A stretch of DNA of 64,000 bases. It comes from an uncultured Clostridia bacterium. Its GTDB lineage: Bacteria; Bacillota; Clostridia; Christensenellales; Pumilibacteraceae. Shown piece by piece: positions 14,063-16,216 of this stretch. The notes beneath the pieces are model-generated. The model was not told where the DNA came from, searched no databases, and saw nothing but the letters and a program-made list of their open reading frames with translations. How positions within the stretch are numbered: the first letter of the stretch is position 1; each line of letters starts with the position of its first letter. The position numbers were made by a program, and so were the translations under genes. The DNA lies in contig CANQFK010000003.1 of the NCBI GenBank assembly GCA_947598585.1, forward strand, positions 1-64,000, in the 5' to 3' direction.

Positions 14063-15349
14063 ATGGCTTATTTAAAGAGAATTGTTGACGATGATCTACA
14101 ATTGAGATTGGATTCTGTCGGCGCCACCATAATCGTAGGTCCAAAATGGTGCGGCAAAACCACTACTGCCGAGCAAAAGGCAAGGAGTATTTTACGCTTA
14201 AATGATCCCGATATGCGTGAAGCATATATTGCAACGTCGCAAACAAAGCCGTCAAATTTGCTTAAAGGCGAAAATCCTCGTCTGATCGACGAATGGCAAG
14301 AAGCGCCTGAACTTTGGGATGCCGTCCGCACTTCCGTCGATCAACGCGGAGGGACCGGCTTGTATATCCTTACCGGTTCAACCACTATAAAAAAGGACAA
14401 TATTCATCATTCGGGGACGGGGCGTATTTCGCGTCTTAAAATGTATCCTATGAGTTTGTATGAATCTGGCGAATCGACCGGTTCGATCTCGCTCGCAGAT
14501 TTATTCAATAAGCCCGACTGTGACTTGGATGGGGCGCGATCGCAACTCGATGTGAACGATTTGATTTTTGCGGCTTGCCGAGGCGGTTGGCCTTCGTCCT
14601 TGGCTCTTCCGACGGATAAGGCAAAATTATTTATTTCAAAGGATTATGTAAACAATATTTGTGAGTCGGATATTTCTTCGATCGATAAAATCGAGCGTAG
14701 CCCCTCTAAAACAAGACTTTTACTTCGCTCTTATGCACGGAATATTTCCACCCTTGCTACAAATTCATCTCTTATAAACGATATAAATGCAAACGAAAAT
14801 ATGAGCGAATCGTCATTCTATGAGTATCTCGACGCATTAAAACGGCTTTACGTTATAGAAGACGTAGAAGCCTGGTGCCCGAATATTCGCTCTAAAACTT
14901 CGATGCGTTCATCTTACAAGCGCGAGTTTGTCGATCCGTCGATTGCCGTGGCTTCTCTCGGTTTGTCGCCAAAATATTTGGAAACGGACTTGAAGACCTT
15001 CGGCTTTATTTTCGAATGTCTTTGCATAAGAGATCTTAAAGTATATTCAAATAGATCGGGCGGCAAGGTATCCTATTATCGCGATAAATTCGGGCTTGAA
15101 GCGGATGCGGTTCTCCACCTTGACGATGGCAGATATGCGCTCATAGAAATCAAACTCGGCAGTAGAGAGATCGAGGAGGGAGCAAAACATCTGTGTGAAT
15201 TGAAAAAACTCATTCGAGAGCATAATGAGTCGAAACAACAAACCGAACTTCGCGAACCCGATTTGCTTATTGTTTTGACAGGCGGACCTATCGCATATAA
15301 ACGAGCCGATGGCGTGTTGGTTATACCTGTCGGTTGTTTGAAAGATTGA
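14063..15349 (+). CDS. AAA_14/DUF4143 ATPase with PD-(D/E)XK-like C-terminus
   Basis: 428-residue P-loop ATPase of the AAA_14-DUF4143 type, common in gut bacteria and archaea and of unknown biological role. Walker A is GPKWCGKT (26-33), Walker B-like LIDEWQ (74-79), and a sensor-like YILTGSTT near 101-108. The C-terminal DUF4143 region contains EADAV (Glu346, Asp348) followed by IEIK (Glu362, Lys364), the pattern of a PD-(D/E)XK nuclease fold; nuclease activity is inference. AAAGGAG precedes the ATG. The gene is monocistronic, lower in GC than its neighbours, and directly downstream of a tandem array, which suggests an accessory, perhaps transferred, locus. Two relatives lie at 61792 and 63431. 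Confidence 0.85.
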   Translation: MAYLKRIVDDDLQLRLDSVGATIIVGPKWCGKTTTAEQKARSILRLNDPDMREAYIATSQTKPSNLLKGENPRLIDEWQEAPELWDAVRTSVDQRGGTGLYILTGSTTIKKDNIHHSGTGRISRLKMYPMSLYESGESTGSISLADLFNKPDCDLDGARSQLDVNDLIFAACRGGWPSSLALPTDKAKLFISKDYVNNICESDISSIDKIERSPSKTRLLLRSYARNISTLATNSSLINDINANENMSESSFYEYLDALKRLYVIEDVEAWCPNIRSKTSMRSSYKREFVDPSIAVASLGLSPKYLETDLKTFGFIFECLCIRDLKVYSNRSGGKVSYYRDKFGLEADAVLHLDDGRYALIEIKLGSREIEEGAKHLCELKKLIREHNESKQQTELREPDLLIVLTGGPIAYKRADGVLVIPVGCLKD

Positions 15350-15434
15350 GAACCGCTAAAACTCACTTCCCGATTTTCTATTGTTGTTTGCCGAAGTGAA
15401 TAAGTCGTGATCCCGACTTTTTTGGTAAAAACAG

Positions 15435-15463
15435 TTGACTTTCGTGATAAAAAGGACTAATAT
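15435..15463 (+). promoter_or_regulatory. promoter of a gene-less transcription unit
   Basis: TTGACT at 15435-15440, 17-bp spacer, TAATAT at 15458-15463. The predicted start point near 15470 is the first base of a long inverted repeat, and no coding frame follows. Confidence 0.6.
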
Positions 15464-15469
15464 ATAAGT

Positions 15470-15626
15470 GCGATACATATTTATCTTATTATTACGCATA
15501 CTCTGTCGGTAGAGATGCATCTATTTCGCATTACATAAAATCGTAATAATAAGATAATGTAAATGTGTCGCAACAAGCGGAATTGAGTATTTTTACAATG
15601 TCGTTCCGTTTGGAGCGGCATTTTTG
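15470..15626 (+). ncRNA. candidate structured non-coding RNA
   Basis: The predicted 5' end (gcgatacat, 15470-15478) pairs with atgtgtcgc (15562-15570; one G-U pair). Inside, atcttattattacg (15483-15496) pairs perfectly with cgtaataataagat (15542-15555). The apical part holds a smaller hairpin (ctct/agag with loop gtcggt, extended by gcat/atgc). The unit ends in a terminator hairpin, atgtcgttcc (15598-15607) against ggagcggcat (15612-15621), followed by T5. A promoter, a rod-like fold and a terminator in about 157 nt without an open frame suggest a stable RNA. The long closed rod recalls 6S RNA architecture, but I cannot assign a family. Confidence 0.5.
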
Positions 15627-15645
15627 TATCCGAAAATCTTTATGA

Positions 15646-15735
15646 AAAGGAGAAAAGCTAAGCGACGACTATAATGCCGAATACAATTACTATTATTATA
15701 ACGACCAAGGCAAAATAGAAGTATGGGATAAATAA
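15646..15735 (+). pseudogene. possible C-terminal remnant of a lost gene
   Basis: A 29-codon open stretch ending in TAA at 15733-15735 reads as a plausible protein tail (Asp/Tyr/Asn rich, ending GKIEVWDK) but lacks a start codon: an in-frame TGA precedes it at 15643-15645. It could be the tail of a deleted gene. The evidence is weak. Confidence 0.2.
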
Positions 15736-15761
15736 AAAGGCAAAATACTTTAATAATAAAA

Positions 15762-15795
15762 GCACCGTCAAAGTCAAAAAACTTTCGGCGGTGCA
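15762..15795 (-). terminator. hairpin terminator, mainly for the minus-strand gene
   Basis: gcaccg with aaagt pairs with acttt and cggtgc across 15762-15795. Read on the minus strand it is followed by a T-rich tract (cttttattatt), so it should end the transcript of the gene at 15908-16216. On the plus strand it also has TTTT, so it may act in both directions. Confidence 0.6.
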
Positions 15796-15907
15796 TTTTG
15801 TTTATTATTGGGAATTGTTTAACGTAAACGACTTTATAAATCGTTGCTTTGCAGGACGCAAAGGCGAACAGACTGTTTTTATTTGTGCGTTTCGTTTGCT
15901 GCAAAAA

Positions 15908-16216
15908 TCAGTCCACGGGCAGATAAGCCTTGTAGATATATTTCTTTTCGCCGCCGTCATCGCGGCAATATTCGACAGTCAAATAGTCGAAGTGTACCCA
16001 TTCCACGAAATCATCGGAAGAGAACTTGGTTATATTGAAATTATTGAAGTTGTTTATATGAGATCGCAGCACGACGGGCGTGGGGATATCCATTTGTTCG
16101 CAAATCTCGGTGACGTATTTTGTAAATTGCGAGGGATCGTACTTACCCATGCCTTTATAAATATGGCTCATTTTGATCTTGTCGTTTTTTATGGTCTTAG
16201 CCCAAATTTTAAACAT
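15908..16216 (-). CDS. small conserved-looking protein, unknown function
   Basis: 102 residues, soluble, no signal peptide or helix-spanning segment, mixed charged and aromatic composition. I do not recognise a family. Support for a real gene is an upstream promoter on the minus strand (16259-16288), a GGAG ribosome site 9 nt before the ATG, and a terminator beyond the stop. A frame on the opposite strand (15791-16222) has no ribosome site and is rejected. The gene is divergent from greA. Confidence 0.7.
   Translation of the reverse strand: MFKIWAKTIKNDKIKMSHIYKGMGKYDPSQFTKYVTEICEQMDIPTPVVLRSHINNFNNFNITKFSSDDFVEWVHFDYLTVEYCRDDGGEKKYIYKAYLPVD

Follow-up and report, generated by a model that had tools for sequence, protein, structure and literature searches.

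The element at positions 15435-15626 of the window, by which we denote the whole 64,000-nucleotide stretch of contig CANQFK010000003.1 that was analysed, is probably an orphaned copy of a cis-acting, promoter-locked leader RNA that attenuates transcription. In its intact form such a unit would comprise a promoter, an RNA that begins with its closing stem P1, and a terminator, with the regulated gene normally following about 25 nt later. Sequence comparison of the family members supports the boundaries of the unit, its stems, the terminator, the complementarity between two strands termed b and c and the place before genes; less strongly it supports the complementarity between c and the 5' arm of the terminator, termed d. 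That the RNA switches between two states, in which direction it does so and that a signal acts on its rod-like part is what we infer.

All parts of the element lie on the plus strand. The promoter (15435-15463) consists of a -35 box TTGACT (15435-15440) and a -10 box TAATAT (15458-15463) that are separated by 17 nt and provide 9 of 12 matches. The predicted transcription start at about 15470 coincides with the beginning of the 5' strand of P1, GCGATACAT (15470-15478). This strand pairs with ATGTGTCGC (15563-15571), next to which the conserved linker AACAA (15572-15576) is found. P1 encloses P2, a perfect stem of 16 bp (15481-15496 with 15542-15557, as read from the sequence), followed by the apical hairpin P3. 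The 5' arm of P3 is strand a (15497-15504), while strand b (15508-15529) comprises its 3' arm and the loop after it. Strand c (15577-15596) can form 19 pairs with b, or its start can instead pair with the 5' arm of the terminator, giving a candidate antiterminator (15575-15583 with 15603-15611). The intrinsic terminator (15597-15626) has a stem of 11 pairs (15597-15607/15612-15622) and a T tail. For the RNA from 15468 to 15626 a folding energy of -49.9 kcal/mol was obtained versus -30.5 kcal/mol (sd 3.7) for shuffled sequences (z = -5.25), with none of 200 shuffles folding as well. A pattern describing the ends of P1 matched once in the window and never in 100 shuffles. The first-pass annotation had described a promoter, a rod with closed ends and a terminator at this site, all of which are present, the last with its first base at 15597 rather than 15598. 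It also had the first bases of the RNA paired, though with 15562-15570, one base off the actual partner, and it gave the perfect inner stem 14 bp instead of 16. Just 3' of the preceding ATPase-like gene (14063-15349) we noticed a small terminator-like hairpin (15402-15425), which would shield the leader from upstream transcription.

A DNA search returned a second copy on contig C10 of the same genome (86% identical) and more copies in congeners. From eleven sequences we built a covariance model, R1, which had matches in 32 of 74 genomes of the taxonomic family (E up to 0.1) and in 81 of 396 genomes of the order (E up to 0.001). A broader model, R2, was derived from 109 aligned matches. At E up to 1e-4 it had matches in 93 of 391 genomes of a class-wide sample; in a phylum-wide sample of 299 genomes it matched only that of the window. 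The counts from the sampled searches are lower bounds, since 7 to 9 candidates were scored per genome under stricter filters. When up to 150 candidates were scored in seven genomes chosen for their high scores in the class-wide R2 search, 26, 11, 10, 7, 7, 14 and 2 matches were found (E up to 0.001). The genome of the window holds three clear copies, one weak match and one opposite-strand echo. A pattern scan of named genomes provided at least 118 stretches. Among the matches listed (80 titles), 76 were Clostridia or families and genera within that class, three bore unspecific names (two 'uncultured bacterium', one Bacillota) and one was a Gallionellaceae contig, evidently a chance match; 78 of the 80 titles were marked as MAG, while the other two, those of L194 and L227, probably stand for cultured isolates from the mouse gut. 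Viral contigs contained 26 pattern stretches, at least two of them chance matches (L291, L297). BLAST searches against phage records with two family members led to 2 unannotated records for one and to none for the other, and a search of one member against plasmids found none. Two other RNAs were seen beside members of the family: an RT-18 RNA (RF03021; L305:6223-6300, minus strand), which shares a viral contig with a family leader, and a Gut-1 RNA (RF01706, 58.7 bits; L340:1196-1272) about 230 nt upstream of one.

For the comparisons below, 6 of 270 matches were dropped because P1 had been located poorly, the start was misplaced or the match lay at a contig end, and the remaining 264 were grouped into 194 clusters. 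Removal of the chance pattern matches L175, L291 and L297 left 191 representatives for the duplex and promoter tests, of which the duplex test parsed 162. For counting the positions of open reading frames (ORFs), these three were kept and 4 contig-end clusters were removed, leaving 190. Opposite-strand echoes of palindromic members were retained (L192 among the 194; L264 and L267 among the 270; L219 and L091 in the alignment A2).

The stems of the RNA are conserved as stems. In A2, which holds 109 sequences that were aligned to the model and therefore leans toward its structure, 93.1% of the 4258 pair cells contained standard pairs, compared to 65.1% in shuffles. Stem covariation amounted to 0.665 versus 0.191 after shuffling, and to at most 0.112 when the partners were slid against each other. 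Within the same alignment, cells were paired to 98.5% in P1, to 80.3% and 96.1% in two P2 helices, to 81.6% and 78.4% in the P3 helices and to 98.8% in the outer terminator helix, in which all 8 pairs had changed on both sides. P2 differs between copies, with compensatory changes. The third pair of P1 was GC in 64, CG in 20, UA in 9 and AU in 6 cases, such that it was paired in all 99 representatives of this count, which had been found by similarity or by R1. Sequence conservation is seen in most of P1, in the A-rich junction adjoining its inner end and in the linker ARCAA after it; in the apical part complementarity is retained more than sequence.

The early reading of the site had proposed to look for compensatory changes at the same locus in relatives. 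Such changes are found across the family. We located greA in 7 of 8 genomes, the window's own among them, and the element was absent upstream of it in all six congeners with a greA match. Conservation is therefore seen across copies and not by synteny, and the unit probably arrived together with its gene. A repeat at the DNA level, or a transposable element, with inverted repeats that merely resemble an RNA would also be multi-copy, carry long inverted repeats and be missing at the same place in six congeners. Against it stand the compensatory changes in the stems, the promoter and terminator at fixed places and the similarity of close copies, which extends into the leader-gene junction, so that we consider such an origin very improbable. 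An integron attC site, a retron RNA and a transposon end were set aside from the sequence because of the promoter, the terminator and the compensatory changes.

The promoter-like sequence of the window would by itself be unremarkable, with 9 such sites in a 3-kb region compared to 6.8 (sd 2.4) after shuffling. What lends it weight is the family, where the same distance between promoter and RNA recurs: the -10 box ends exactly 5 nt before the first position of the RNA in 172 of the 191 cluster representatives and five or six nt before it in 183, while shuffled upstream sequences provided a flat distribution of distances. A -35 box with at least 4 of 6 matches accompanied 154 of these 183. With the -10 spacing fixed in this way, the predicted start falls on the first base pair of P1. 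Several genomes contain tandems of two or three units, and each of the nine later units that we looked at had its own promoter, which is unusual for tandem riboswitches. In the tandem loci L131, L132, L133, L137 and L114 (genomes G257, G420 and G324), located before a lipoprotein or zinc-ribbon gene, a TACCACAT-type unit comes first and a TGCGAC-type unit lies beside the gene; L137 consists of three units.

Two features of an attenuator are seen in the family. First, an intrinsic terminator is conserved in the leader. Second, the leader is placed directly before a ribosome-binding site and a gene on the same strand: an ORF of at least 50 aa preceded by a Shine-Dalgarno (SD) sequence starts within 120 nt of the terminator in 156 of the 190 representatives, at a median distance of 24.5 nt, while 34 have no such ORF within this range. 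This arrangement is lost in the window copy. In a subgroup (L078, L089, L103, L142, L077 and L136) the ATG follows the T run of the terminator after a few bases, such that the ribosome-binding site may lie within the terminator stem. By a simple N-terminal rule 73 of the 156 downstream proteins were lipoprotein-like, as were 69 of 616 controls, which were ORFs of the fetched loci with a length of at least 150 aa. A Pfam scan of 108 downstream proteins (107 chosen from 181 downstream ORFs and the one of L024, all truncated at 350 aa) found 32 with LRR_5 (BspA type) and 7 with Flg_new domains, as well as a few zinc ribbons, SHOCT and HTH domains and one SLOG family protein. The downstream genes are diverse, with a leaning to the cell surface.

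These neighbours bear on the idea of a stand-alone small RNA that acts in trans from its own promoter and terminator, its neighbouring genes being incidental. Such an RNA would agree with the complete promoter-RNA-terminator units, the pairing of the 5' end from about the first nucleotide, the existence of gene-less copies such as that of the window and the promoters within tandems. However, it would leave the SD-preceded ORFs within 120 nt and their enrichment for one kind of protein as coincidences, and the c-d complementarity would have no role in a pure small RNA. We therefore regard a stand-alone small RNA as unlikely.

The rod with closed ends that starts at its promoter had also been compared with the architecture of 6S RNA. 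This likeness did not survive comparison with the Rfam model: 6S RNA (RF00013) shares the rod-like fold and its own promoter and terminator with the family, which has no match to the model, and the region 15350-15800 yielded no 6S match at E up to 5. The single RF00013 match of the genome lies elsewhere (C10:42692-42895; 48.5 bits at a cut-off of 46.4). Up to 26 matches per genome and a leader position, mostly before genes, likewise argue against a 6S RNA or a 6S-like decoy of RNA polymerase, to which we assign practically no likelihood. Between the 6S RNA of the genome and the second leader copy (C10:46750) lie about 4 kb.

The copy in the window appears to have lost its gene. The first-pass annotation saw a unit without a gene, which is true of this copy but looks secondary. 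On the 3' side of the terminator, 28 of 29 nt match the leader-gene junction of the copy on C10 (L024) as far as the ribosome-binding site. This part includes a ribosome-binding-site-like AAGGAG (15647-15652), which we take as a remnant of the lost gene. Past this junction the sequence jumps to 26 codons plus stop (15655-15735), which align with the last part of the gene that follows leader L027 and encodes a lipoprotein with repeats that by eye look BspA-like. Upstream in the frame of this remnant of an LRR-repeat lipoprotein gene there is a stop (15643-15645) and no start codon. On this alignment the window copy is an orphan leader whose gene was deleted except for its last 26 codons. After the remnant a hairpin GCACCG...CGGTGC with a T-rich flank (15764-15798) was read from the sequence, which is perhaps the lost gene's own terminator. 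Further on, the minus strand carries a 102-aa ORF (15908-16216); in the six congeners with a fetched greA locus, ORFs resembling it lie next to greA.

To characterise the proposed exchange of strands we compared the predicted duplexes of cognate partners with those of partners permuted among the representatives. In the window the b-c duplex comprises 19 pairs at -20.8 kcal/mol. With the P2 arms removed, the 162 parsed of 191 representatives had a mean b-c energy of -17.8 kcal/mol, compared to -11.25 kcal/mol (sd 0.26) for permuted partners and -12.3 kcal/mol for the best of 10,000 permutations, which ran across clades and ignored relatedness. For 84 of the 162 the cognate was within the best 5%, where 8 were expected. 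This test replaced an earlier one that included the P2 arms and gave a weaker result (-18.85 versus -13.81, cognate first in 10 of 194). The b-c columns of A2, an alignment that was not fitted to b-c, provide modest support, with a covariation of 0.193 (0.144 shuffled, at most 0.089 slid) and 70.6% paired cells compared to 65.9% in shuffles. For c-d, i.e. the start of c with the terminator 5' arm d, the energies were -14.1 versus -9.5 (sd 0.20) for permuted partners, and 76 of the 162 were within the best 5%. The window's own c-d pairing is modest (-10.8, with 17% of foreign partners as good). The column test for c-d was weak: covariation reached 0.245 compared to 0.177 in shuffles, 58.5% of the cells were paired, partners slid by +2 and +3 paired in 59.6% and 61.3% of a smaller number of cells, and pairs altered in both partners were not enriched, as 379 of 500 shuffles reached the observed value. 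Of 151 strong cases, 93% had at least 60% of the P3 3' arm within b, such that P3 and b-c largely exclude each other. The median b-c duplex had 17 pairs and -17.75 kcal/mol, the P3 region -7.3 kcal/mol. A test of the pseudoknot geometry did not favour it: rods were not longer where the connecting lengths were larger (Spearman -0.27).

A leader with an always-active terminator, in which b-c merely ensures termination and constitutively damps expression without any switching, would fit to a b-c duplex that is far stronger than P3, to the well-folding terminator and to the weak c-d column test. It would, however, render P3, the c-d complementarity and the conserved sequence of P1 and linker needless, and we give this explanation a rather low probability.

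We prefer an attenuator with two exclusive states. In the on state strand a would hold b in the hairpin P3, leaving c free to capture the terminator 5' arm as an antiterminator. In the off state c would take b from a, forming about 17-19 bp, such that the terminator forms and transcription stops, in the window near 15626. Given the far greater strength of b-c compared to P3, the default state is probably off. The gene would then be switched on when a putative signal, such as a ligand, a protein or the timing of folding, acts on the P1-P2-P3 rod; candidate triggers are a metabolite, a protein or co-transcriptional folding by itself. With its gene gone, the window copy would produce only a transcript of about 157 nt that ends at the terminator.

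Riboswitches that terminate transcription and have a pseudoknotted expression platform include those for preQ1, ZTP and fluoride. The family resembles them in the 5' leader, in a candidate antiterminator that would exclude the terminator, and in an apical loop that can pair with a strand 3' of the closing stem. It differs from them in a much longer exclusive strand (about 17-19 bp), in an RNA that starts at P1 itself, in the diversity of its downstream genes and in having no Rfam match. The c-di-GMP riboswitches are many-copy regulators of surface proteins in Clostridia, and they resemble the family in the many copies per genome and the surface proteins among the downstream genes. Their model had no match over a leader in the loci searched, and one sub-threshold match elsewhere on L324.

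No family motif had been recognised from the letters, in agreement with Rfam 15, in which none of 4227 families matched over the leader at gathering score in the window or in sets of 20 and 19 loci. Searches by E-value (up to 5 for the window stretch, plus sets of 9 and 9 loci) likewise gave no leader match that reached the cut-off; weak matches over the stretch (mir-312, MIR4371, BTnc231 and others) were far below it and were taken as chance. In the mostly open-access literature searched, including passages of PMC8632094, PMC6429828, PMC8040213 and PMC11109978, no description of this RNA was found. An earlier anonymous listing is possible, e.g. among the 3161 candidates that PMC8040213 reports in its tables. 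By its description in PMC6429828, the SLH motif candidate is similar in being a candidate leader of surface-protein genes with Clostridia among its hosts.

More speculatively, the units may constitute a promoter-locked class of RNA switches through which gut Clostridia place a large regulon of surface proteins under one common signal; terminated leaders and orphans might in addition act in trans on sister leaders by intermolecular b-c pairing. Such action would be possible because sister copies can share b and c, as the window and C10 copies do. If the reading as an attenuation leader is right, a family of leader RNAs that is missing from Rfam would be present in about a quarter of the sampled Clostridia genomes, with up to 26 matches per genome, and it would allow a three-way exchange of strands, coupled to a transcription start at a fixed place, to be studied by comparison. 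Surface lipoproteins and BspA-type repeat proteins would be abundant in the regulon defined by the ligand or partner of this family, and the bacteria concerned are known mostly from assembled metagenomes.
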